Assembly (NCBI GenBank): GCA_025765595.1
Contig: JAIVFH010000027.1
Location: 1 to 64,000 of the forward strand
Reading direction: 5' to 3'
Source: Obelidium mucronatum
Taxonomy: Eukaryota; Chytridiomycota; Chytridiomycetes; Chytridiales; Chytriomycetaceae
Length of the DNA stretch: 64,000 nt
Positions 2,114 to 39,687 of this stretch are shown piece by piece (position 1 is the first letter of the stretch; every line of letters begins with the position of its first letter). The position numbers were made by a program, and so were the translations under genes. A model generated the notes under the pieces. The model was given only the letters and a program-made list of their open reading frames with translations. It was not told where the DNA came from and did no database searches.

Positions 2114-2793
2114 ATGCAGACAACAAACACGACAATCACGCTGAACCAGCGGCCGAGCAACGTCCTTGCAGTTGGGCTATTTGACGGCGTGAATGCGACG
2201 CTTGCGTTTATTGCCTCTTCTTGTTCTTCAACAAACAGCACAAGCAACAACGCCATCACTTTCGCGCCCCTGTCACACTCTCCCAACTTCCATCAGAGCA
2301 ACCAACCCCGCATTCACTTTCCACCGCTGACAACACGCGTCAGAACTGTCCGCTTTCTAGCCGCCGCACGCGTTTTACCATCAACAGCCGAGAATTCCAA
2401 CTGCGACTTTCTGATCATTGCCACTGATTCTGCCCTATGGTTGTACGTATATATATTCGTGTTCGCGAGAACGTCTGAATAATTGAAATCAAAAATCAAG
2501 GTTCAACGTGTTTGACAACTGCGACGCGTTCTACATTGATATCCCGAACGGCGGCGTACAATGTGTCTGTGTATCGCCTCAAAAGAATGATTCGACTATT
2601 CCGGTCATTTATGCCGCGTTGGATGATTTTCTGATTCAAGGATATAATTACAAGGGCGAGGAAGTATTCTGGACAATGACGGGAGATATCCCCATCTCAT
2701 TGGCGATAATGGATATGAATCGCGACGACGGCGGCGATGGGGAATACTATTTGATAGTAGCTTCTGAGGTTGCTTTTTTTTTTTTTTTTTGCG

Positions 2794-2830
<37 letters not shown>

Positions 2831-4951
2831 AATCTCGTCCTGTTTCAACAACTCAAACTGGGGTTTCCCAATCTCTTTTTTTTTTTTTGGTTTCAAGGAT
2901 AGCTGTGTTCGTCTTTTCTCAGCGGATGAATGCATTCAAGAACTAGATGTCAAGAGGAATGCTGTAGCACTCTGTCCACTCTCGATTGGGAAGATTGGGT
3001 GAGTGCTTGCTGAAAAAAAAAACAAAGCCCACGTACTGAACTGTATTTTTTTTTTTTTGAAGATTCATGCTTGACGATGGAACGATAGGAATCATGACTT
3101 CCCTTTCAGACACCTCCTCCCCTGTCTGGAAGTATAAACCAACCGTGCAAGTAACAAACATACACGGTTTCAGTTTCACTTCCGACAACCATACCAGCGG
3201 TATTGATGAAAAGGAAACTAAAAACTTGGTTGTTGGGTACACGGACGGTACTTTGGAAGTCCGTTGTGGGAATACAGGGGAGATATTATGGGCAGATGGG
3301 TTGGATGGATCTAAGGTTGTTAATGTTTCTAGCTTTGATGGTCCTGCTGGTGCTTGTCTTTGTGTCACTTTGGAGAGCGGTGTTGGTGAGTTTGTATGCC
3401 TAAACATATATATTGGATTTGGTATTAACATAACGAGTTTTTAGTACATGTATTCAACTCTTTGGATTTGAGTGGTGATAGTGCAGTCGATATATGCCAG
3501 CTGTTGGAAGCTGAGATTGAGGAGCTTGCCGAAAAAAAGAATGTAATAAGAAACAACTGTATTGCGCAAACTATACATTCTAACTTGGGCATATTTTCTT
3601 TTAGCAACTCTTGGTGGCTGCATCAAAGAAAAGTCAAACTCTTAGTGTCCCACTGGTCAAGAATGAACCAAAGTTTTCCTGCAAACTGGAACTTTTTTAT
3701 GATCAAGCCGGTATCCAAGACTCGGGATGCTACTTGATTGTTGACAGCTTTGGAGATTGTGTTATTACTGGCGTTGCCGTTGAGTTTCTGGATGAAGACC
3801 ACACTTCCGAGTTTTTGTATGTTTGTGTTGTGTTGACTGGCCAAACTTACATTACTGATAACCCTGTAAGGACGTTCGACCAACACAACACGGCCGTCAG
3901 ACACAAATTAAAACTGCCAAGAGTTTATACCAAAACGGTTGACGTAAATCTTCGGGTTCTGTACACTTCAAAAACTGCAAACACGACGCCGAATTTTTCT
4001 TCAGATAACCAGACCAGGTCTTCAGTTTGGAAGCAAGTTCTCTCGATACCTCAGTTCGCAGTCTTCAAATCCGTCTCATTAGCACACGTTCGAAGTAGCG
4101 GTAGGCCATTGGAGCTTGCAGTTTGGTTTCATAGCACTGTTGGACTTTCCGAGGTATTCCCCCCTTAAATCAAACCCTTATTGAGAATAATGTTTTCACA
4201 CATGCTTGTTTTTTTTTGTTAGGTTATCAAGTGGATCACCAGCTCCTTTCTCGATACAACTCATGTTCAAGAGTCCTCCAACACAAAAGACATGGAAGCA
4301 GCATTCATCCACACTACAACAGACACACCCATCATTCTGAAAAAATCAGAAACGAAATTCACTATCGAATCACAACCTTCTCAATCAAGTATCATCAATG
4401 TGATATCAGAAATCATTCAATCCTACTCGAAATACTTGAACATATCATCCGTCAAAGTTGTGACGAATAAGAGATTCGGATCGCTTCAGAAGGAGATGGA
4501 GAGGCTGTTTGACAAGGTTCATGACTTGCGTGCGGCGCAAGAGTCTGGATTGGTGAATGCATTGGATTCGATTCCAGCCATGAAAGCATTGATGCAAAGA
4601 GTGAATAGTTGTTGTGAGATTGAAGACATGTAAGTCCACTGAACTGTGTCTACTCTATAAAATTAATAAGTTTTTAATGGAATGATTACCGTTTTATGAA
4701 GAAAAGGCGCCCAACGTGATGCCGCGACTTTATTTGAGAGACACCGAGCAGTTTGTTTTGAGTACACAAAGTCTCTTCACCATAGTGCAGAGCTTGATGG
4801 ATCGTTGGATAAGCTGAAGGAGCATGTGGGATGTTTGGCTGGACTTCAAGTTGCGCCATCAGAAAAAAGTGCTATTCTTGGAACGTATAGAGACGCGATT
4901 TTAAATGGCGGGAGCGGGTCCTTTGAATCGCTGATGACAGCGTTTCCATAG
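2114..4951 (+). CDS. BBS2: Bardet-Biedl syndrome 2 protein (BBSome subunit)
   Basis: Core BBSome subunit, which moves membrane cargo into and out of cilia. Exon 1 (from ATG 2114) gives NVLAVGLFDG, matching the start of the BBS2 beta-propeller; later exons give the blocks EEVFWTMTGDIPISLA, GFMLDDGTIGI and NLVVGYTDGTLEVR, then the coiled-coil and GAE-like region. The C-terminal exon ends YRDAILNGG..., like the family's CRDAIRSNNI block, with TAG at 4949-4951. About eight exons. The exon 1/2 junction fits best with donor GTTGTA near 2436 and acceptor before 2501, giving LWFNVFDN against human LAYDVYNN. The intron at 2769-2897 holds long T and C runs. The presence of BBS2 supports a flagellated organism. 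Confidence 0.88.
2769..2897 (+). repeat. Poly-T / poly-C tract inside a BBS2 intron
   Basis: This intron of BBS2 starts GTTGC and ends TTTCAAG. It holds a run of about 16 T, then an almost pure run of more than 30 C (about 2797-2828), then another T run before the acceptor. Read through, it would encode polyproline, but splicing joins ASE to DSCVRLF, which keeps the propeller intact. The C run is a likely site of length error or polymorphism. Confidence 0.75.
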
Positions 4952-24556: not shown

Positions 24557-25540
24557 TCAGTAGTAGGAGTTGCAAATCCACTGGTTGTTTGAGACTTTCC
24601 TTTTTAATTGTTGGGGGTAGCCAGGGCTAGCGCTGCGCTTGACTTCACAGCAAACACATTGCAGGGCAGATGCATCATTTGTAACCATGCAAGACTCGCA
24701 TGTACATCCAGCTGAGGATATGGCGACATCAGAATGTCCAGGTTTCTTTGCCGTAACTGGAATAGTATTTACTGATGGGGCGGTGATTGATGTTGCTCGA
24801 GATCTACCATGTTTTGTTGCCTGAGCGTGCTGGGCGGGCTGATGAGGAGTACCATCAAACCATGTTGTTTCGCAGCAACAATGTGCCACCGAGGCACATT
24901 CGGAAACCAAGCAAAGATCACCAGTCCAGCCTACTGTAGAAGCTACTGTGGTATCGCGTTTTGATTCGCAGCTAACGCATTGCGCGGCAGATGCAACGTT
25001 TCGGACCAGGCAAATCTCACAGAGCCATCCTGTTGAAGAAGCAGTACTATTGGGGCGCGCCACTTCCGGTTTTTTATCTTCAACTGGAATAGTTTGTACT
25101 GATGGTGTAGCAATAGATTTTGCAGGATAGTTGCTGGGAGAGTTGCTGCGTTTCGAATTCATGCTTGTGATAGGCTGGGACTCTATTCAAACAAGATTGT
25201 CGGTCGGCCGAATAAACCAATAGAGAGATCGGCCTACCTTTAAACTAGAGGTTGCTAGCGTTTGTGCCCACTGCCAACGCGTGTAAGCCACTCTCAAGGA
25301 GATCAACAAGAGCAGTTTGATAAGCCAATCTAAGAGTAACAAGAGGAACTCTAGAGCAGCATGACTCGCGTCTGTGGCGACATGCTTTGGCTCTGCTCTG
25401 ATGATGTCAAGTTGGTTTTGGATTGTCGCAATGCGATATATGAGGGAAATCTGGCCTTGTTTACGCCTGCGAACTTTGCAAAGAAGCGGTGAGGACAACC
25501 GGTTCCGACGCAGACGCGTGCGTTGCTGGTAGTTCAATGG
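24557..25540 (-). pseudogene. Decayed nucleoporin-like copy with three RanBP2-type zinc fingers
   Basis: The first part copies the N-terminus of the neighbouring gene at 27593: the ATG frame at 25540 runs only 29 codons. QNQLDIIRAEPKHVATD then appears in a second frame, and LRLAYQTALVDLLE in a third, followed by TAG near 25245. That is at least two frameshifts and a stop relative to the intact copy. After a short gap a frame of 201 codons (25162-24557) has zinc fingers GWLCEICLVRNVASAAQCVSC, GWTGDLCLVSECASVAHC (first Cys lost) and GCTCESCMVTNDASALQCVC. The propeller is missing. It may be a relic of tandem duplication, or the finger part may still be expressed alone. Confidence 0.6.
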
Positions 25541-25611: not shown

Positions 25612-27593
25612 CTATCGTTCCGAAGAGCCCGATTCTCGATAACTTGAGAATGGCGCTCCCTTGAAGCAGAGTTGCTGGGTACTTCCTCCAAACACGCTGA
25701 TGCCTTCAGTTCCATTGCTGAGGTTGTCAAGCCGTGAGTTTGAACTTTAAAAAAAAAGCGTCTTCTCTTACTTTGAAGCTGTAAAGAATCCAAGCTTATT
25801 AATATACGCTTGTTCAAACGCCGAGTTGCTTGTGACCGAAGGGAATCCGCGCTTGGGACTCATTACTGTTCCAAAGCCAGATGTTTGCCCAAATATGACA
25901 GTGGGAGTAGAGACAACAGGAGCGCTCCTGCTTTCGTTTCTAGCTAGGCTCGGATCAGCATAAGTGCATTCGGTCGCTTTATAGCTCGATTCTGTCCCTT
26001 TTTGATCTGCTGGGTTGGCTGCATTGACTTCAACGGTGAATGGAACCTGACGACAGACAATATCGCGCAAGGAGAAATAAAACATAGAGCACGATTTGCT
26101 CAGAATGAAAATACGCGGTGACTGATGATTTGAATTGGGTTGCTCCTCAGAGAAGTCCAGGGCAAGGCTGGCGACTGAATCGCTTTGATCCAACGGCAAA
26201 TTGGTCCCACAACATGCGTTAAACACACACCATTCGCCATTTACTTCACAGAAAAATTCTATTCCAGTCCCGGCAAAATTGGCAGCGGCCCAAACGCGAG
26301 GACACTGTCTGCCATCCCGCTGATCGGAGGTATTTTTCCACAGACTGATCGAGCAAGGAGGAAGAGCTTTGTAGTTGGTAGATCTCCCCGATTTTAGAGT
26401 GCCGCTTTGGGTGACAAGAAACGTTTGAAACGATTTGTTGTCCTCAAGTGAATAACGTAAAATGAACTTCATATCTTCCAACCACAAGATGTGCTGGACT
26501 AAAAATAGTCATTTTGAATTAGAGGCATCAATTTGGTTGATCAATAAGTTTACCCATTAGGTTTTTGCTTGTAAGTTCTGACGGCATTGGAATGATATTT
26601 TTCACGTTTCCTTCCAAATCAATTTGACGGAGAGAGCCAGTGCTGTCTCCAACCGCAAGCTGCTTCCCTTTACGACTCCAACACATTGATGTTACACCCA
26701 TTAAAGCCTGAATGTGAGTAAATTCACCAGATGAGATATTCAAGAGATACAAAAGGCCAGAGCTCGTTCTGATTGCGCAAATGTCTGGATATGTTTCTGG
26801 GTTGGGCAGAATCGCAAAATCTCCTTTGAACGGGCATTGCCACTCGATGTACTTATTCCTCCCCTAGTACATTGATATAAATACAAACAAGTGATATAAT
26901 ACAGGTAACACACCGCAGAGAGACTTGAAGATTTGTACAGCAAGATCTTTCCGGAATCAATTCCAATGATTATGGTGTCGTGATCCGCCGATAATCGAAT
27001 CTGTTTGACGACTCCATCGACATCATAAAGTCGCTTGCATGAAACCTTGCCGCGCTGGTTCTAGTTAAACGCAAATTATGCAAGTAAGTACCATTAAAAT
27101 GTAAGGAAGCGCGACGAACTTTGGATAAAGCATCTCGGAGATCGGCAGTTTCGATGTAACCAAACCCTGACTTCGTTCCAAAGACGGTATATCCAAATGT
27201 GTTTGAAATCTCAAGTAAATTGGATTCAATTGCTTTCCCTTGTGTTTCTTCAATTCCTGGTAATGTCACGATTGGTGGAGGTTCAACCGAGTTTGATGTG
27301 ACAATATCAGGATGTCGCAAGCCTGCCGGCAACGGCAGGCTTGCTGGAACTGGAACCAATGCATGCAGATCATTCTCGAGATGCTCAACAAGAGCATTTT
27401 GATAAGCCAATCTAACCGCGACGAGACGTGATTCGAGAGCAGTATGGCCTGTGTCTGTGGCAACTTGCTTTGGCTCAGCCCTGATGAGATCAAGCTGCTT
27501 TTGGATTTTCGAGATGCCGCAAATAAGCTGGTCGCTTCTGGTTTGTGTGTTAGTGCGGACAGCGGCCGGTTGGTTCTCGGAATCAATCGACAT
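25612..27593 (-). CDS. Short nucleoporin-like protein with one Nup214-type propeller
   Basis: Fourth copy of the propeller seen in the large upstream nucleoporin. The start at 27593 lies 38 bp after that gene's stop. It has its own N-terminus (SKIQKQLDLIRAEPKQVATD, then Pro-rich). Then come SNTFGYTVFGTKSGFGYIE, KQIRLSADHDTIIIGIDSG, LPNPETYPDICAIRTSSG and CWSRKGKQLAVGDSTGSLRQ, parallel to the other copies. From about 26300 on it diverges and lacks the YPVG block. After an intron (donor near 25767) the last exon reads SVFGGSTQQ with one FG motif and ends GSSER at 25612. The zinc fingers and the long FG domain are absent. It could compete with or replace the large protein at the pore; this is inferred. 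Confidence 0.65.
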
Positions 27594-27631: not shown

Positions 27632-30100
27632 TCAGCGGTACCCCGAGAATGAAGCCTTTTTATCAGTACCCGTAGATCCAAAAGCCGATGTTTGCGAAGT
27701 TTGTGCGCCACCAAATACTGAACCACCGGAACCTCCAAACACTTGAGGTTGATTGTTGCCACCAAAAACACTTTGGTTGGAGCTCCTACGTTTGTTGGCG
27801 TTAAAAAATAGTAAAAACAAAGTGAAAAGAAACTTACGACGCAAACGCGCTGAATCCTCCAGCAGAGGGAGCTCCCGAAGACTGGCCAAACACAGATTTG
27901 GTTGAAACAGAAGGGAAACCCACTGCCGCCGGAGTCGTAGCTGCAGGCGTGCCAAATGCAGATTGACCAAAACCTGATTGTCCGAAGGCGGATTGTCCAA
28001 AGGCAGGGGCGGAGGACGAAGAATTAACGGCTCCAAACACAGAACTTTGTCCAAACGCGCTGGTACTCGGAGCATTCGACGCTTCTTGACCAAATACAGA
28101 CTGATTATTGGGCGGTTGTTGTTGTTGCTGTCCGAATGTGCCGAAACTTGGCTGCCCAAATGCCGAACTGGCGCCAATCACCGAACCGACTGCAGCAGGA
28201 GTTTTACCAAATACCGAAACTTGTGGGCTAGATCCAGAAACCTGTCCGAACCCACTTGTGGAGGCTGTGGCTGAGGACTTTCCAAATACGGACCCCTGAG
28301 TGCCCACTCCAGAGGCTTGCCCGAACCCAGCTGATGGAGTAGCTGACGATGATTGTCCAAAGGAAGAGGCTCCAAAAGCTGAAACCGGCGCAGCCTGACC
28401 AAACACCGAAGCACTTGTGCTATTGCCGAAAGCACTTCCCGTTGTGGTCGATTTGGCAGTCTGTTGCCCAAAGGATGGCGTGGTCGAGGCCGAAGATGGC
28501 TGGCCAAATACTGACTGGGTTGATGGGGTCGTTGATGTTGCTGTTGGCTGCCCAAACACTGGCGTTTTAACGGTTCCTGAAAAGCCTTGACTAAATGCAC
28601 TGGTAGCGGATGGAGCTGGGGATGCATTATTCGAGTTTCCCAAGAAAGAGAACCCAGTTGTTCCTGCTCCACTAGGTTGCATGGGCGCACCAAAAGTGGT
28701 CTTTTCGGACCCGAACGTAGGTGCAGTTACAGCTGGTGGAACGGTTCCAAACATAGGGTTAACTTTGTTCTGAGGGGCGGTTGGGCCCCCAAAGCTTAAG
28801 GCTTCCCCGAATCCTTTTGTGATCGAAGGACCCTCAGGGGTCTTTGCCGTACTGAAAGCACCTCCACCAAAGGAAATTCCAAAAGGCGCGGGTTTTTCTG
28901 CTGCAATTGGCGTAGAAGTGATTATGGGACCAGTAACTGCACTTGCACCAGACTCAGGCTTACTGGTGACCAAAGAATCAGACGAGTCATGCAAACACAT
29001 ACACACTTACGAAGAATTAGAAGGCGTTATTGCGCTGCCAAATATAGAAGTATTAGCTGCGGTTGAAACTGGGGTTTTGCGGTCACTATCGGCAGAAGCG
29101 GCTGTAGTTGTAAAGCTAAGTCCTGTTCCTGCAAGGGCCCCTGTGCCGGTAAAGCTATCTTTTGGTTTAAGCCCATCAGTTGCTTTTGAGCTGGAAAAAG
29201 ACAGAGTTGCAACTGGTGCGCTAACTCCAAAAGCAAGGGTGGACTGGGAAGAGGGAACGTCGGGTTTCGGTTTGTCACTTATTTTGGAGGGCAACATTTC
29301 TTTGGGTTCAGTGCTTGTAATCTTGGGCTCACTTAAGTCCGTGTTCTTGCCAACTGAACCAAACCCTCCATTGTTTCCTGTATTCTCTGTAGGTTTTAAA
29401 TTGAAACCTCCTGAAAAAACCGGTTTCGTAGATTCAGATACAAAACTGGCCGAGAAACCGAAACCCCCAACTGGTGCAATTGTTTTCGCGGGCTCAGCGG
29501 TTGTGGCGGACTCCGTAGATTTTTGGTCAGTGGGGGCAGTGGATTTGAAACCGAAACCTCCAATTGCAGAAGCAGAAGGGTTTGTAGGCAAAGCGACAGC
29601 CGGTGAGGGAATGCTGGGCTCTGTAGATCCGAATGTCGCCGAATTTTTAATCGTTGCGTTGGCGATCGGTTGGGCGGAAGACGCGAATGCAGTCTTCGAC
29701 AAGGGCTGTTTGGTTTCAACCACAACCGAAGAAGACACAGCAGATGATTTTGCTATAGCAGTCGGATTTGGAGGATTGCTGAAAATTCCTTTGGTTGCAC
29801 TTTGCATCGGAGGTTTCATTGCAGGTGTTGGATGTGGTTGCTTCTCAGAGGATCGGGCTTCTGCAGCGAGCTGGTCGGATTTGAGCTTTGCATTGGCAAC
29901 AGCTGAAAGAGCTGCAGATTTAATTGAAGCAAAAAACTCTTGTTGGACTTTGATTGCGTTTGGCAAAATAGTTTGTGCCTTCGGTTCGACATTTTCGTCA
30001 TCAGAGTCATCAACAAAGTTGGCACCGTATGCATTTTTCGAGTTGGAGGCCTTTGACTGCTTCGACTTAGGTGACAGAGTTGGATTGCGCTGTGTTACTT
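27632..30100 (-). repeat. FG-repeat domain of the nucleoporin
   Basis: Ser/Thr/Ala/Pro/Gln-rich, unfolded type sequence with GFGFKS, GGFGFS and GGFNLK units in the first half and dense SVFGQ, AFGQ and SFGQ units in 28900-27840, ending VFGGAQTSQTSAFGSTGTDK. FG domains form the permeability barrier and bind transport receptors. The end of the gene is the TGA at 27632-27634. The DNA repeats are protein-coding, not satellite. Confidence 0.85.
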
Positions 30101-33100
30101 CTGCAAGCAACACATCCAAGTTTTTGGAAATGGTCACTGTATGGGATGTAATTCGCCGGATGTTGCGACAAAGGGTATCCCAATCTGGTAATCTAATATA
30201 ATGGTTCGGTTTTAGTTTCAATATTCCAATGGATGTCAAAAATTGTCTTACCTTTTCGGTTGTTTTACCCCAGACCGAATCTCCAAATCGTCTTTCATTT
30301 CCACTAAAGAATCTTTTACAATGGAAAGCTCCGCCTCCAACATCTGACGGAAATGGCAATCAGTAAATGACAGTTGAAATTGCTTCATACCTTGATCTTC
30401 TTCTGCAAAGTGTTTTGAAGATGAGCAAACTCCGGTCCCAAATCCCTTTCTCTGTCGGAGATGTCTCTTGATTCACTGTTCAAGAAAGTGAATAATTTTC
30501 TGGAATGAGCTTGCTTCCCTCTGACTGTTGCATCACAATGTTATGAGAAATATTGGGATTGTACCACGAAAGACTAACTCAATTGAACCGCATTTTTCAG
30601 CTCCTCTTTCACCGAAGCAAATCTGCTTGCTTCTGTCTCGGCAGACAGAAGAGTCCTCTTCATCTCAGAAATCTTAATGTGAGAATCATCAATAATCGAC
30701 TGCGAATTATTTCCAGCCTTTGTCACGTAGCCAGATGTGTCATCAACAAATCTGCGTAGCTATAAAAAGGGTTTTATTAAAAATAGTGAATCAAAATAAT
30801 GGATGCCTACCTCGCGTAAATCATCCTCGACTTTCAGAGCATAACCGATCAAAAACGCCTGACAAATCAGAAGGATCCGCATACGACTTTGGCTTGGTTT
30901 CTCGCTTTGTCGGTGTGGGAATAACGACATGATTGATTGCTTCTTTTGGCATCAGCACAGCCACTGGCTTTACTGCTTCATCAGGGAAGCCCGAATCAGA
31001 AGTGTTTGGTAGGACGCCGGACTTTAGGTGAATTACCAAAAGTGGCAGATGGGACAGATGCAGATACCCCAGCCTTTTGGAGAGAGAATGGTATGGGTGC
31101 AGCAGGTGTGGCATCTTTGGCGACGCCAACAACTTCTGAGGCGGTACTACTGACAGGGCCCTTGAAGCCAAATCCATGTGCCACTATCGGTGAAGAATTT
31201 GCTGACGGACCTGCTCCAAAAGTCAACGAAGTATTTGCCGGTTTCGCGTTTCCGGGATAAGGGACTTTAGCGACAATATCAGCAGGACCTTTGAATCCAA
31301 ATCCAAGTGCAGGAGTAGGCGAGGATGGTTTTATCGGGCCAGTACCAAAAGTGAGCGAAGTCTTCGCTAGATTCGGATCACTCTTGACTGCCTCAAATCC
31401 AAGTGAAGGAGCACTACCAACAAGATTTCCAAACAAGCCTGAAGGAGCTGCAGGAACCGTGGTGACTGCCGGAGGTTTAAACCCATCTCCCAATGCAACC
31501 GCAGGTGTGGCTACTTTTGGAGAAATCTGAACTTGTGATGGTAGTGGCGCAGCAGAAAGCTACGAAACGTCAGTCGTCACCACGATATTTGCATCCTCAA
31601 TAAATTTACCTCCTTATGCTTACGAACACCCTCAAGAGCTTCTGCTTTTGACATATTTGAACACGAAGTTTCACGCCCACCACTTATTAAATCCACAATG
31701 TTGTACGCCAAAAGATGACCTGCAGTTGTCAAAACAAACAATACAGGCATAGGACAAAAGTCTGGAGAGTCCAGAGAAGGCCCTTTAACTTTGACGTCAC
31801 TTGTGAAGTCAATATCCAATCCGACAGGGTATGACTCATCGTCATTGGAATTAAGTGGCAGGGTGATTCCATCTCCAATTCTCCAGCAGTTCCATTCACT
31901 TTCTTTACATCCATACAAACCAATTTCACTTGATGAATAGTTTCCGAAAGACATCAAGTAATTTATATCGCCCCTTTTGAAAAAAGTGTCAGAACTACAT
32001 TGACAAGCAATACCACACTAACATTCCCCGAATTAATCCAGTATAAAAGTTGTGAGCTCTTTCGCCGTTAGAGAACGGACAAGGATCCTCCAATTTTAAA
32101 TATTCTGTGCTGATTCCTGACTTTGGCGTTCCAGTTTGGGTTATCACATATCCGTGAAGACCTTCAAAAACCGAATACATAACAACGAAAACTTTGTCTT
32201 CAAGCCAATAGATGCTCTGTACTGTAGCAAGAATATTACGAAAAAAACGAAAAAACCAACCCCCCCCCCCCCCAAAAAAAAACCCCCAAAAAAAGCACAA
32301 TTGAACGAACCAGAAGGTTCTTGGTCTTCCAGACTTGGAGGAATAGGAATCGTGTTTTTGATGGTTCCATCCAAAGTTATTTGCCTGACCACACCGCTAG
32401 AGTCTCCGATGGCTAGCTGTTTGCCCTTGCGACTCCAGCAGAGTGCAGAAACATCTACATCGCTTATTTCCACTGGAGTGAACTCGTTCGTTTGAGTACT
32501 GAACATTGATAAACATCCATTTGCATGATGAACAGCACAAACATCCGGAAAGGCTTCTGGATTCGGCAATAACACAAAGTCTTCCTCACTGGGACATTTG
32601 ATGGACTTCAAAGCATGTGTTTCTCCCTACAAATAAATGTTACAACTATTATTCCAAACGTTACTCGAAATACCAACCGAAGCCAAGTCCGATGCTTTGT
32701 ACAGCATCAAGGTGCCTGAGGTCAACCCAATAAAAACTATTTTTTGATCTGCAGAAAGTCTAACTTGGTTCACAACATCGTCCACAATCTCGACTTCGTG
32801 TGCAGATTGAACATGTATCAATTGTCTCGCTGAGGCCTAAATACACAATCAAAACAAGCCGAGAAGTGATTAAACCTGGCATACCTTGGAAATTACGTTT
32901 CTAATATCCTTTGTAAACGCAAACCCAAATCCGGTAAATCGTCCATACACAACAAATCCATACTTGTTTGAAACAGCCAGAAGGTTAAAATACACGCTTC
33001 CTTCCGCAGGATGATCGAACGCTTCAGACAGTTGTACTTTGGAATCCACTGGGTTTTGGCTGATTTCAAGGAACTGGCGGAAAATGTAAGAAACTGAAAT

Positions 33101-36100
33101 ATACCAAATGTAGGGACTAACTTCGATTTCAACAACATCACCCTCCTTCTCCTTAACGAGCTGTGACAAAGACTTTGGGACCTTTGGCTTGACAACTGAC
33201 ACCAAGTCACCTTGAATACCTGGCGGAACCGACACTTTCTCTGGCGACTTCTCTGTTGTGGTTGGAGTGGTTGTGGGAGTACTGCTGAAGGTAACAGCGG
33301 CACTTGCAAAACTGAATCCTTTTGCAGAATTACTGAGAGATTCGGTTTGTGGAGCGGATGGTCCTGGAATCGACAAAACGCTCCTCGACGAGTTGAATGA
33401 TGGCGATTTTGGTGGGTTGACACCAAATCCTCCAGAACTTGCGGGAAGTTTCGGCTTTTCAGGAGGGTTGAAGCTGAATCCTCCAGGTGACGGCTTTGAA
33501 TCTGAGGAGAGAATGGCAGATGGTGATTTTGGTGAGCTGAAACTAAATCCTAAGGCGGGGCTTCCGACGGCTTTTGTCTGTTCTCCTGAAGGGTTGAAGC
33601 TGAATCCCTTCGCTGAGGTCTTCGAATCAGAAGCAGGTACGAAAGAAAATCCACCCGATACAGGAGGCTTCGTTCCGATACTTGCGTTGAAACCGGAGTT
33701 AACAGGTTCAACTTTTGAATCAGCTGTCGGGGTGAAAGAAAATCCACCAGTCGTTTGAGGGCTTCCCTTGTCATTGACAGTGACGGGATTGAGGCGGAAT
33801 CCAGATCCTGTACCTGTGGATGCGAAAGTGCCTGTAAGTGAGGTAGTAAGTCCGAATCCAGTTGCTGCACTGCTACTGAACGAGCTTGCCCCAAAAACAC
33901 TGGCACTGGATGCACCGGCTGGCAACGGAAAACTAAATCCACCACCGGAGCTGGTTGGTGGGGCTGTAGCCGACTGACTAAACAAAGATGGTTTAGGAGG
34001 GGCTGTTCCACAGTCCCGTTTTGTTTCGCAGCAAACGCATTGTGTCGCAGATGCGGTGTTGGACACCATACATGAATCGCAAGTCCAACCTGTTGCAGAA
34101 GTGGTTTTGGCGGCTTCACTTTTGAACAGCGATGGCTTAGCGGACTTGTCGCCAGCATCGCGCTTCACTTCACAGCAAACGCATTGCACAGCGGATGCAT
34201 CATTCGGAACCATGCAAGACTCACAGGTCCATCCAGATAAGGACACAGCGACATCAGAGCGCACTTGAACGGATTTCTTTACTTCAACCGGGATGGTTTG
34301 CACTGATGGATCAGCGATCGATTTTGCTGGAGATTCATCATGTTTTACAGCGGTTGACTGAGCGGAAATTTTTGATGGACTAGGACTCTAATCAAACATC
34401 ATAACATTGTCCGGTGAGTGAATTTAGCGACCGATAGGACTTACTCTTGAACCAGTCAAAGCAGCTGCTACGGTCATTGCAGGGCAAGCTTTGGCTCTTG
34501 CGCTAGACTTGGTATCCACGACATTGTATACCACGAGACACCCAGCCGTGTTCAAAACGTATAATAGAGGAGAAGGGCAGAGAGTTGGTTCATCAGGAGA
34601 CGATCCTTTGATTTTTTCTTGACTTGTGAAGTCAACGTCCAATCCAACGGGATAAGTCTCATCGTCTTTTGAGTCAAGTGGCAGAAAAGGTGCCATCTCC
34701 GATTCTCCAAATACTCCATTGTCCTTTGTGACATCCATAATATCCAATTTCGTTCGACGCAAAGTTGCCGAACTGGTATCAAAAAGTTGGTTTCACCCCT
34801 TCAATTGCGTACAATTTAAAACAGACACCCACACAAGAAAATGATCAAACTCACATGGAAGCGATTATGCTTGGGTAGAAGTTGAAGTCTCTTTCCGTCC
34901 TTTCAGTTGGACAGGGATCTTCCAACTGGAGGTATTCAGTCTTGATTCCGCTTTTTGCTGTTCCAGTTTGTGTAATCACAAATCCCATACAAGGCTCGTC
35001 TATAATCGTGTAGATTATAGCAAAAGTCTTATCTTCAAGCCACAAGATACTTTGCACTGATAATCCAGTCAGTAATCTTTGGAAAATCAATGCGGACAGC
35101 GATCTCTACCTTCAACTTCACTGTCAACAAGTCTTGGAGGCGCTGAAATGGTGTTTTTGACAACACCGTCAACAGAAATTTGTCGAATAATCCCCTTTTC
35201 ATCCCCAACAGCCAATTGTTTCCCTTTACGACTCCAGCAAATTGAAGTGATAAATACTCCTTCCAACTCCACAGATGTGAACTCCTCTGATTCGATGTTT
35301 AAAAGAAACAAACTGCCATCTGCGTGTCGCAAAGCACATATTAATGGATATGCCTCCGGGTTGGGCAGCATGATAAAATCTTCATCATTAGGACTCTTGA
35401 TTATCTTAAACGCTTTTCGGCTTCCCTGTATCATCCCATTATTTCAAATCTCGTTCTCCTAAGGCAACTTACGGATGACAGCTGGCTGGCTTTGTACAAC
35501 ATAATATTTCCTGATGTCAAGCCAACAAAAACAATATTCTGATCGGCAGATAATCGTATTTGGTTCACAATATCGTCTGAAATCTCGACATTTACTTTTC
35601 CGTCGACTTTGACAGTGGCTCTAGGGCGGGACTGGGAGCAAACGGTTAATGCCGTCCTCAAAAAACGGTAAAATCGCAAATACATTTGAAATCTTGTCCT
35701 GAATGTCCTTTGTAAGTTCAAATCCAAACCCAGACTTTGTTCCAAACACAACGTAGCCAAACTTGTTTGAAATAGCGAGTAAATTGTAGGAAATGGCCTC
35801 CTCGCTTGGGAATTCTAATTCATCCGATACTCGCAGTTGAACACCAATAGGAACTTGCTTAATTTCAATAAACTAATTCTTTGGGTTAACTTTACAGAAG
35901 TATTATCACAACCAATGACACCCACATCAATATCAGTTTCAGTGCCAACTGTTTCTTCACTGGATTGCACAGTCTTCAAGGGTTTGATTTTTTTATCAGC
36001 TGTGTCAGCCTTAATCGATTCGGACTCAGATGGTACGCAAAGTTTGGAGGGAGCACTATCTGAGGAAGGTTTAATGATGTTAGACGGCTCCTGTGCTGAG

Positions 36101-38780
36101 TCACTTTGAGCAGACGCAATAGAGTTAAATGCAGATCCGGATAGCGACTTCTCATCGAAGGGTTTAGCCGGTACATTTGCTGGATTGGTTGAAGGGGGTT
36201 TAAAGCTAAATCCCCCTGGTGGAGGCTTTGAATCAGGTTGAGGAGCGAAATTAAATCCACCGCTTGTGGGGGGCTTCTTGTCGAAAGGTGCGGAAGATAT
36301 GACACCGAAGGCTCCCGGTGTGGGCTTTGCACTGGAGGCAGGAGTGAAAGCAAATCCACCAGTCATAGTACCATCTGAATTTCCATCAAGAAGTGCTGGC
36401 TTAAAGCTGAAGCCAGTCGAACCTGAGTTCGCTGTGAACCTGAATCCGCCGGTTGAAACGCCAGTAGGTGGAGCAGCTGCGGCTGCAGTTCCAAATCCCT
36501 TTGTAGGAGCGGCACTAAAAACACTTGAAATGGAGCCTCCGACACCAAAAACATTAGCCCCTCCACCGGTCGATTCAACGGTTGGTGCATCGAACAAAGA
36601 CTTCTTTGCAGGAGCAGCTTCAGCATCACGTTTTCCTTCGCAGCAAACACACTGTAGCGCAGATGCGTGATTCGGGACCATACAAGACTCACAGGTCCAT
36701 CCAGCCAATGATTCGGACGGAGCAAGGGCGGATGACTTGTCAGCAATAGGCTTCTTAACGGCAATTGGAATCCCAGAAATTGCTGATGCTTTAGTAAAAG
36801 ATGCTGCTGAGCTGGGACTTTTGCTTCGCGCTGGAGTTGGGACTGGCGACGTAGTTTCTGGCGTCTTCGCTCTAGCTTCCAAAGTTTTGATCATGTCCGA
36901 AACTCGAGATCTTCGTTCAGGTGACTTCTCCCGCGATTCTGAAGAGTGAGCGTCAGAAGAAGTCTTTTCTGAGGTGGCGGTTGTCACTGTAGTTGACGAG
37001 ACTGAAGAAGCAACCACACTGGCAAATGATCTATCAGGGGATACTTCGCGTTTCGGGGTAGAGCGGCCCTGTTTTGGGGTTGTCGTTCCGGAATTCGGCA
37101 CAGTTGATTTGTCTTCCTGAGATGAAGAAGGCACTCGCTCGACGGATTTGCCATTTCTGGTCTTTGATTGAGATGGAGATTTATTCCGATTTGGACTGGA
37201 ACCCTATAGTAGGTGTTAAAAAAGCAAAGAAATACTAAGAAGAACCCTTACACGAGAAGTTCCAGTCAAAGAAGTGGCTGTGGTCATTCCTGCACAAGAT
37301 TTCTCCTTTCCAGCAGAACCAATATCCAGAATATTGTAAAGTAGCAAGCATCCAGCATTGTTCAACACATAAAGCAAAGGACAGGGCGGCAAATCAGGAA
37401 GGTCTGCATTTTCTGACTTCACTCGATCGGGACTCGTGAAGTCAATGTCAAAACCAACAGGATATGTGTCATTATCAAAATCATCAAATGGCAACATAAT
37501 TCCATTCTCCCAACTTCCAGGAATTCCAGGATCCCTTGTGTTTGCCGAGAAAACCAAGACTCGTGCTGGCGAAGTTCGCAAAAGGAACAATGCATGGAAT
37601 GTCACCCCTGCGGAAGAAAAAACATTAAAACCGCGATCAAGTCATGAGGGCATACTCACATTTCTGTGATTAGTGTATTGTAGTAATTTCCTCGATGGCG
37701 GTCGGCATCAGGGTAAGGACATGGATCTGTGAGCCTGATGTGCTCTGTCGTGAGACCTTTCTTCACCGTTCCAGTTTGTGTGACGATAAACGCGTCGGAT
37801 TCGTCGCCATGATGGTATACTATAGTAAATACTTTGTCTTCCAACCAGAAAATGTGGCTGACTGCGACTAGGAAATAGCAGTTCATGATGAATACAAGCG
37901 TTCTTCCTGTCAAAATGATTCAATCACCTGAAGTTGTAGTGTTATCAAGAACTGGGGGGAGGGAAATTGTGTTCTTGACCAGTCCCTCCACTGACACCTG
38001 ACGGACCACTCCATAATTATCACCGACTGCGAGTTGTTTTCCTTTTCGACTCCAGCAAATTGATGTAATTTCGCTTTCGAATGCATCAATATGTTTAAAT
38101 TCTCCGGTGGAGAGCGACAACAGGTACAAGGCGCCATCTGCGCTATTGATCGCGCAAATGTCTGGGAATGCTTCCGGATTGGGCAAAACGACAATATCTT
38201 CTTCATCTGGAAATTGAAGTGTTTTATGCGGTTTTTTGTTTCCCTAGACAAGGTGTAAGTGAGAAGCCAATTGGATGACAAGAACAAACCGAAGCAAGTC
38301 CTGCGGCTTTATACAACAATATCTTTCCCGAAATCAGTCCAATAATAACAGTTTCATTGTTCGCACTGAGTCGGATCTGGTTAACCACATCATCCAAGAC
38401 AGGATAATCGCGCTTTGAAGACAGTTCTATGCACTGCCTCGCAGAAGCCTGTTTATTTTGTTTTTAGCACAGGAAGCAGGCATAGCTGGATTCTTTACTT
38501 GTGAAAGAGCAGCCCGCACATCCTTCGTATAAGCAAAGGCAAAGCCTTGGCTTGTACCAAACACAACAAAACCAAATTTGTTGGAAACAGCCAGAAGATT
38601 GTAATAGATTGGATCCTCGTTGGGCAGCTGGAGTGGTTCGGACACTCGTAGTTTTGCGTCAATAGGGGTTTGCTTCACACGAACAAACTAGTCTCGGAGT
38701 TAACTCAACACGTTGATTCAAAGATAGAAGAAAGCATTAAATGGACTTACATCCACATCCAGATCTGGTTCTGGCTCCAT
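27632..38780 (-). CDS. Giant nucleoporin, Nup214/Nup159-like, with three tandem propellers
   Basis: FG nucleoporin of the cytoplasmic side of the pore, where Nup214/Nup159 docks the mRNA-export helicase Dbp5. Order from the N-terminus: propeller 1 (38780-37245), linker with one RanBP2-type finger, propeller 2 (about 35930-34440), linker with two fingers, propeller 3 (about 33130-31600), short linker, coiled coil (about 30780-30250) and an FG domain (about 30100-27632) with many SVFGQ and AFGQ units. The linkers are open in one frame and run into each next propeller through an intron at the same place, with no stop or new start, so this reads as one gene of about 3,000 or more aa. Nup214 normally has one propeller. 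Frame use between 31060 and 30790 was not resolved (short intron or single-base indel). Confidence 0.72.
31600..33130 (-). repeat. Propeller module 3 of the nucleoporin gene
   Basis: Opens with EGDVVEIE, an intron, then FLEISQNPVDSKVQLSEAF. Blocks: LLAVSNKYGFVVYGRFTG, NQVRLSADQKIVFIGLTSG, LPNPEAFPDVCAVHHANG, CWSRKGKQLAIGDSSG, YPVGLDIDFTSDVKVK and LFVLTTAGHLLAYN. About 2,800 bp from module 2. One of its introns (near 32220-32300) holds runs of C and A. The linker after it has no zinc finger. Confidence 0.8.
34011..34235 (-). other. Two RanBP2-type zinc fingers in linker 2
   Basis: GWTCESCMVPNDASAVQCVC (about 34156-34235) and GWTCDSCMVSNTASATQCVC (about 34011-34093), each with W, N and four Cys in place. 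They are closer to each other and to the linker 1 finger than to a generic finger, so they arose by local duplication. Both are followed by CCxxKRD and then PSLF. Confidence 0.8.
34440..35930 (-). repeat. Propeller module 2 of the nucleoporin gene
   Basis: Opens with ETDIDV at the end of linker 1, an intron, then FIEIKQVPIGVQLRVSDELE. Blocks: LLAISNKFGYVVFGTKSG, NQIRLSADQNIVFVGLTSG, LPNPEAYPLICALRHADG, CWSRKGKQLAVGDEKG, YPVGLDVDFTSQEKIK and LLYVLNTAGCLVVYN. Its CWSRKG block lies about 2,820 bp from that of module 1. ETDIDV corresponds to exon 1 of the gene (EPDLDV) but has no ATG. Confidence 0.8.
36628..36708 (-). other. RanBP2-type zinc finger in linker 1
   Basis: GWTCESCMVPNHASALQCVC followed by CEGKRD: W-x-C-x2-C-x3-N-x6-C-x2-C, all four Cys present. 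In other proteins such fingers bind Ran-GDP, ubiquitin or RNA. The surrounding linker is Ser/Thr/Pro-rich upstream and rich in GGFxF units downstream. Confidence 0.8.
37245..38780 (-). repeat. Propeller module 1 of the nucleoporin gene
   Basis: The 10-codon first exon MEPEPDLDVD (38780-38751) is spliced to FVRVKQTPIDAKLRVSE (from 38687). Diagnostic blocks: LLAVSNKFGFVVFGTSQG, NQIRLSANNETVIIGLISG, LPNPEAFPDICAINSADG, CWSRKGKQLAVGDNYG, YPVGFDIDFTSPDRVK and LLYVLNNAGCLLLYN. The exons match modules 2 and 3 one by one. Confidence 0.8.
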
Positions 38781-38824
38781 CTGTAACTTGAGGTTGTTTT
38801 GTTTCTTTTTGCTTTGATTTTTAA

Positions 38825-39687
38825 ATGAAGAAAGGACGGAAGGTCCAAACAGAAACGCGAATGCCGCCCGTCGTCGTTCAAGAAGTATTTGCTTGGATTC
38901 ATCCTCGATCTGTGCTTAAATACCAGCGACTGGCCACTGACTTCTGCCTTTGCTTGAGAGACCCCATATTTGCCCTCCTCAACCTGCAGCACTTCATTGA
39001 TCCTAGAGCAGAGCAAACCGCGGCAAACATGAGAAAATTGGATGAATTTGATTCCTTGTGGTTCAGGTGGCCGCGCTTCTACCAGAGAGTATACGCCATC
39101 TTTCGATTGCAACACTTGGTCAAGTTAGATTGGCGAGGGATCAACGCAGTTCAATCACGCATCCCCAAAGCAATTGGATTTCTTGAAAACATCACCCATC
39201 TTAAATCTGGCCTCGGCACGCTTGACGGGACCTATTCCCCGTGAAATAGGACGGCTTGTGACACTTGAACACTTAGCTCTTCACTGGAACCAGCTAGACG
39301 GATCTATACCCACCGATATTGGCAATCTAATAAACTTGAAACATTTAAGTCTGGCGGACAATAATCTGGATGGCCCGATTCCGGCATCGATCGGTCATCT
39401 TCGGGCAACTTGAAACCCTCGACTTAAGCAATAACAGGCTGGAGGGAACGATTCCCAGTGAAATCGGCAAACTGAAAAGAATCACGAGATTATATCTGCA
39501 GAATAACAAGCTTCGTGGGCTTCTTCCGGATGAGATTTCACATCTATCCCATTTAAGAGAACTCAACGTTTACGAGAATTTATTTGAGCGATGGATCATT
39601 CCATCAAGTGTTACGGCTGATTTGCCGCTGTATAGTGTGTTGCGTGGTATAGGGTTTTATAATGATGGGGAGAACCGATGGCGATAA
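38825..39687 (+). pseudogene. F-box/LRR protein gene with two frameshifts
   Basis: The N-terminus MPPVVVQEVFAWIHPRSVLK looks like a divergent F-box helix region. Then at least four plant-type LRRs follow: LTGPIPREIGRLVTLEHLAL, LDGSIPTDIGNLINLKHLSL, LDGPIPASIGHL and LEGTIPSEIGKLKRITRLYL. The frame changes twice by one base: near 39203 (AAA run, after ENITHL) and near 39400 (GGG run, after IGHLR). With those two bases set aside the LRR spacing is perfect, so either the gene is recently broken or the assembly has two homopolymer errors. No signal peptide, membrane segment or kinase is seen. The start is 44 bp from the divergent nucleoporin start. Confidence 0.65.

Follow-up and report, generated by a model that had tools for sequence, protein, structure and literature searches.

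A Nup214-like gene with three tandem propellers in the chytrid Obelidium mucronatum

The window analyzed here is a stretch of 64,000 nucleotides from the chytrid Obelidium mucronatum (assembly GCA_025765595.1, contig JAIVFH010000027.1, positions 1 to 64,000). From 38780 to 27632 its minus strand can be read as one Nup214-like (Nup159-like) gene of 25 exons with a product of 3284 residues, if five single extra bases (at 37504, 34773, 34685, 31022, and 30838) are skipped. All 24 introns have the GT...AG form, with a median length of 52 bp. The chain consists of exon 1, three propellers that are each followed by a linker with phenylalanine-glycine (FG) motifs, a single coiled coil, and an FG domain at the C-terminus; linker 1 has one zinc finger, linker 2 has two, and linker 3 has none. 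An earlier inspection of the letters (the sequence-only reading) had placed such a gene between 27.6 and 38.8 kb. The single continuous gene was indeed recovered, but its frame in the assembly is broken by the five extra bases and a fourth propeller gene lies outside that interval.

Exon 1 (38751..38780; all features of the gene are on the minus strand) supplies the start codon and encodes MEPEPDLDVD; the public O. mucronatum protein P0034 (BDR26DRAFT_290659) begins at the same Met and, over 335 residues, shares 99% identity with module 1. The propellers occupy exons 2–6 of each module, namely 37252..38687 in module 1 (38687-38499, 38448-38290, 38243-37928, 37861-37660, and 37607-37252), 34445..35872 in module 2 (35872-35684, 35631-35473, 35425-35110, 35056-34855, and 34798-34445), and 31610..33073 in module 3 (33073-32885, 32836-32678, 32626-32311, 32221-32023, and 31973-31610), the frame of the last being intact. 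The three full-length, regularly spaced copies that had been noticed by eye were borne out: they are 2815 and 2799 bp apart, each carries a CWSRKGKQL block, and the NUP159/214 propeller family PF16755 matches them over nearly the whole profile (E 3.8e-39, 6.6e-36, and 1e-38 for modules 1, 2, and 3). For every module the best sequence matches in the PDB were human and Xenopus Nup214, as structures of the N-terminal domain (NTD). The exon layout is also repeated, with lengths of 189, 159, and 316 for exons 2, 3, and 4 in each module, 202, 202, and 199 for exon 5, and 356, 354, and 364 for exon 6 (modules 1, 2, and 3), and with phases of exons 2–5 that agree among the three. An intron of 89 bp in module 3 contains a run of 14 G (minus strand, 32260-32273) after a T run and may be prone to sequencing errors.

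Pairwise identity between the modules is only 49–55%. By Nei-Gojobori counts they differ at 24–29% of second codon positions and 59–62% of third positions, the much lower value at second positions showing that purifying selection has kept each propeller. Based on 117 columns in which the residue class is conserved in at least six of seven single-propeller Nup214s, module 1 keeps 88%, module 2 90%, and module 3 86%. An acidic residue stands at the position of human D359 in all three. Duplication by the assembly, or chance, was ruled out as very unlikely, given the divergence between the modules and the same layout in independent genomes.

Linker 1 is encoded by exon 7 of module 1 (35926..37203), which is rich in Ser, Lys, and Pro, carries FG motifs, and is spliced in frame to module 2. 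Linker 2 is exon 7 of module 2 (33122..34387), and exon 7 of module 3 (30811..31559) encodes a third linker that runs into the coiled-coil region (30090..30811, bounds approximate). The C-terminal FG domain follows (27632..30090), with the stop at 27632. Linkers 1, 2, and 3 contain 3, 3, and 6 FG dipeptides and 5, 7, and 2 GFxF motifs, respectively; the whole model, propellers included, has 59 FG dipeptides, of which 39 fall in the last 764 residues (2521–3284). Zinc fingers of the WxCxxCx3Nx6CxxC type, as in RanBP2 and Nup153, lie at 36640..36699 in linker 1 (motif at residue 586) and at 34172..34231 and 34028..34087 in linker 2. The linker 2 pair gave its best sequence matches to RanBP2/Nup358 (E 1.7e-17) and then to Nup153 (5.3e-7, 3gj7). 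Taken alone, PF00641 stayed below its cut-off in the window (16.2 bits in linker 1, and 23.5, against 27) and exceeded it in the related proteins P0001, P0003, and P0007. The sequence-only reading had let the propellers be followed by one coiled coil and one FG domain; the coiled coil is found once, as stated, but linkers 1–3 also carry FG motifs, and the zinc fingers of linkers 1 and 2 had been missed. Since the single-propeller Nup214 of the chytrid Blyttiomyces helicus (P0007) has Nup358/Nup153-type zinc fingers too, the fingers probably predate the propeller expansion.

A sequence search of the genome found the coiled-coil sequence in this single place, which makes the present gene the only candidate for an anchored Nup214. 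In the corresponding part of the relative P0024 a helix of 95 residues is predicted. In Nup214/Nup159 the coiled coil links the protein to Nup88/Nup82 and Nup62/Nsp1. A PDB sequence search with the coiled coil returned no Nup214 coiled coil among its matches.

The junctions between modules bear on whether one protein or several are encoded. Linkers 1 and 2 each form one uninterrupted frame, 426 and 422 codons long, with a chance of staying open of 1.6e-11 for linker 1 and about 2e-11 for each. The last Met before the next propeller is 146 residues upstream in linker 1 and 315 residues upstream in linker 2. Neither junction contains a stop, both are spliced in frame, and from module 2 to module 3 the open reading frame (34387-32870) continues through the intron, remaining open even if unspliced. 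The junctions end in an acidic stretch (e.g. TETDID/FIE) resembling the end of exon 1, and similar junctions were found in Podochytrium, Siphonaria, Physocladia, and Rhizoclosmatium, as if old tandem copies had been fused in frame. The modules might instead be separate neighboring genes, tandem duplicates that only seem fused. Just such a gene, copy 4, lies immediately downstream (25768..27593, minus strand; 551 residues, four exons, frame intact), its ATG 38 bases beyond the stop of the main gene, and the public Obelidium models P0034 and P0038 split the locus, the latter covering the 3′ part of copy 4. Nevertheless, P0034 ends inside a propeller just past a frame change and not at the end of a gene, and the long open linkers with no nearby Met, the in-frame splices, and the fused layout in models of Podochytrium, Chytriomyces, Siphonaria, and Physocladia, and in a partial one of Rhizoclosmatium, make separate genes highly improbable. 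Because the two public models split the locus, the three-propeller gene is hidden in the annotation, at least as returned by our searches. A predicted single Nup214-like chain of three propellers is well supported by the continuity of the exons, the likeness of the junctions, and the shared architecture of the relatives.

The extra base at 37504 falls in exon 6 of module 1, at a place uncertain by a few bases, and changes the frame by +1; P0034 runs out of frame there and ends just after. Exon 6 of module 2 has two extra bases (34773 and 34685) and exon 7 of module 3 another two (31022 and 30838), while all remaining exons are in frame. Further +1 changes were seen in a candidate Dbp5 gene on contig C19 (four; L017) and in the leucine-rich repeat (LRR) gene adjoining the locus (two, near 39200 and 39400, plus strand), and match coordinates placed others in an Hsp70-like gene on contig C38 (two, 158344 and 157533) and a kinesin gene on contig C9 (one, 413951). 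In the HSP70, chaperonin, kinesin, and myosin searches such changes were looked for by eye and not counted systematically; all 14 of the 14 noticed are +1, and no common motif was seen at the sites. Because similar bases occur in the Dbp5 candidate and in other genes, we take those of the main gene as base-level assembly errors, which is likely, albeit unproven, would need errors to be uneven between contigs, and leaves the +1 bias unexplained.

Comparisons between similar contigs bear on the same question. Between C169 and C26 (97.8% alike), 4497 columns contain 83 substitutions and 16 gaps, each gap a single base; the three other pairs compared have longer gaps too, of several lengths, and one of them, C96/C408, has no more than 4 substitutions and 5 gaps across 7510 columns. 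The pairs C96/C408, C55/C406, C11/C512, C239/C142, and C480/C49, three of which were compared, carry near-identical gene matches, as if alternative haplotypes had been kept apart.

If the frame changes were real mutations, the locus would be a decaying pseudogene yielding no full protein. Such a view draws on the five apparent changes themselves, of which exon 6 of modules 1 and 2 accounts for three, and on the C96/C408 pair, whose few differences indicate that not every contig is error-prone. It is hard to reconcile with the other exons being in frame, with purifying selection on the modules, with this being the sole genomic place of the coiled-coil sequence, with the extra single bases in the Dbp5 candidate and other genes, and with the one-base gaps that set C169/C26 apart from the other three pairs, and we regard it as very doubtful. 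Even less probable is +1 ribosomal frameshifting across genuine extra bases. The uniform direction of the 14 changes would fit, but the sites share no motif, the four longest HSP70 matches keep a single frame (with one TGA inside two of them), and the propellers of relatives align unbroken across the region of the exon 6 sites. Separate genes and a pseudogene were both set aside as unlikely.

Three protein searches yielded 40 proteins, in 31 of which propellers were counted using a profile of the three modules in the window; P0032–P0040 lay outside this count, and P0032–P0035 and P0038 were read by eye. The survey of other chytrid Nup214 genes that had been suggested at the outset gave two to four propellers in relatives within the Chytriomycetaceae. 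The counts were three in Podochytrium, four in Chytriomyces confervae, two in Siphonaria, and two in Physocladia. Two partial models of C. hyalinus jointly fit four, and C. cf. hyalinus JEL632 has two, the first partial. By eye, propeller 1 of Siphonaria is P0032, on another contig, the other two being in P0003, and a partial model of 513 residues from Rhizoclosmatium hyalinum covers the last part of one propeller and roughly half of the one after it, hence at least two. Pfam propeller stretches number three in P0001, two in P0003, and one in P0007. Single propellers, in some cases in partial or split models, were counted in the short C. hyalinus model P0025, Blyttiomyces, Quaeritorhiza, Synchytrium, Batrachochytrium, and Syncephalis, and also in the butterfly Leptosia, vertebrates, and two further entries. 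All multi-propeller genera are listed under Chytriomycetaceae, and the counted proteins from outside the family have one propeller each. For the relatives that were folded, the best fold match was Nup214.

Two trees were built, the first from the propellers of 11 proteins and the window, the second with P0032, P0033, and copy 4 added. Hits of fewer than 180 model positions (ChyalB_1), P0024, P0025, and others were omitted, as was Ursus from the second tree; for Siphonaria, the split hits in P0003 were merged in both trees and renumbered in the second in view of P0032. The Chytriomycetaceae copies form one group (support 100/100), apart from the single-propeller chytrids. Within it, Chytriomyces copies 1–4 pair between the two species, Podochytrium propellers 2 and 3 are recent copies, and window module 1 groups with Siphonaria 1 (92/84). 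Among the Siphonaria propellers, 1, 2, and 3 are closest to window modules 1, 2, and 3 (58, 57, and 57% identity), module 3 being slightly closer to the Rhizoclosmatium fragment (59%).

Nup214/Nup159 brings Dbp5 to the pore, where Dbp5 strips export receptors from mRNA. One clear Dbp5 candidate was found in the genome (C19:302483-303797). It keeps R259 and a basic residue at 262, the helicase residues (R259/R262) that Nup214 D359 reportedly contacts in the structures of 2009. In yeast and human, Dbp5/DDX19 is recruited to the cytoplasmic face by a single Nup159/Nup214 propeller (PMC7553267, PMC5998080). The human Nup214 NTD inhibits the stimulation of DDX19 by RNA and yet adds to DDX19 activity in the joint presence of RNA and Gle1-Nup42 (PMC5998080), and NUP214 is anchored via NUP88 by coiled coils (PMC6356203).

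We propose that the gene encodes the only pore-anchored Nup214 (Nup159) of this genome and that it was enlarged by in-frame tandem duplication of a propeller-plus-linker unit. The duplication would have preceded the split between Obelidium and Siphonaria and probably occurred on the stem of the Chytriomycetaceae. Each propeller, carried on flexible FG linkers, could hold the RecA1 domain of Dbp5, giving up to three helicase docks per Nup214, and the docks would adjoin the linker zinc fingers and FG sites that receive Mex67-type and Crm1-type receptors. We give a probability of roughly 0.6 to an only pore-anchored Nup214 enlarged in this way and offering up to three Dbp5 docks; Dbp5 binding by each module, pore anchoring, and Ran binding are what we infer within it. 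By analogy with the zinc fingers of RanBP2 and Nup153, which bind Ran-GDP, those of the linkers could bind Ran. The single Dbp5 candidate together with the conserved core of all modules makes us lean toward several docks for one helicase, which would be the simplest mechanism. More tentatively, the protein may be multivalent: a single chain anchored at the pore would carry two to four Dbp5 molecules simultaneously, flanked by FG sites and Ran-binding zinc fingers, and the disassembly of export complexes would thereby be an array process in this family.

The main rival also assumes one protein, but with specialized propellers, of which one would dock Dbp5 and the others would bind other helicases, Nxf1/Mex67, or scaffold nucleoporins. 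The divergence of the modules, their correspondence by position with those of Siphonaria, and the grouping of module 1 with Siphonaria 1 are in line with it, as is the lack of the acidic residue at the D359 position in some modules of relatives, which suggests that some modules may not bind Dbp5. On the other hand, all window modules keep 86–90% of the 117 columns as well as the acid at D359, and module 1 (88%) lies between modules 2 and 3, so that we consider specialization unlikely, while taking it more seriously than separate genes or a pseudogene.

Several observations weigh against the reading of one gene with up to three Dbp5 docks. Read as deposited, the frame meets its first stop at residue 340. 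P0034 and P0038 are the only public Obelidium models that the protein searches returned, and both are short. A single transcript over the modules is predicted from genomic DNA, and the public proteins of relatives are gene predictions. In C. confervae the junctions before propellers 3 and 4 are unlike the others, and the D359 position is occupied by Q, V, or N in three modules of C. confervae and Physocladia. Finally, in the module tree the deep forks, like those among modules 2 and 3, have weak support, too weak to give the deep order of the duplications.

Other propeller sequences occur nearby and elsewhere in the genome. Copy 4 is more divergent (PF16755 E 1.7e-20), spans 105 of the conserved columns and keeps 75% of them, and is without a coiled coil of the main gene's kind. 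Beyond it, at 24600..25470 on the minus strand, decayed remnants of a further copy were recognized by eye, consisting of a 5′ part of the copy 4 type and degenerate zinc-finger pieces. Another gene, in C169:1-9900 (L008; minus strand, about 3960-430) and on C26 (L009), combines a Nup214 propeller with one zinc finger, and no Pfam family matched its C-terminal part. Weak PF16755 matches (19.6–25 bits) were also obtained at C24:115868, C41:196724, and C199:20551. On the other side of the locus, the first ATG of the divergent LRR gene (plus strand) is only 44 bases from the Nup214 start codon (38780-38825), leaving a very short divergent promoter region. Rfam and tRNA searches of the window gave no matches.

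The occurrence of two, three, and four propellers beside single-propeller chytrids offers a natural series for two questions: is mRNA export limited by how many Dbp5 docks there are, and does the propeller act by concentrating the helicase or by regulating its cycle? Under the array reading, dock number would have changed between genera, from one to four along that series.

The statement of the sequence-only reading that it knew of no such case agrees with our searches of open-licence papers: these, with PMC8421043, PMC6371224, PMC11825100, and the three papers cited above among them, yielded no description of more than one propeller in Nup214/Nup159, or of chytrid nucleoporins. The closest known system is Nup214/Nup159 itself (human NUP214 and yeast Nup159; 2oit, 3fmo/3fmp, 3fhc, 1xip, 3rrm), with which the chytrid gene shares the full-length propeller family, FG repeats, and a putative coiled coil between propeller and C-terminal FG domain. 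It differs from these single-propeller proteins in having three propellers (two to four in relatives), FG linkers between the propellers, and RanBP2/Nup153-type zinc fingers within the chain. Utp21, Elp2, and Gemin5, which appear in the Foldseek list and which we take to be tandem-propeller WD proteins, belong to other families (TMq at most 0.21 in ranks 7–50 of that list); unlike these, the chytrid chain repeats a single docking domain, with long linkers. The zinc fingers are alike in sequence to those of RanBP2/Nup358 and Nup153, but in the chytrid gene they sit within a Nup214, which suggests that functions split in animals between Nup358 and Nup214 are joined here in one fungal protein.
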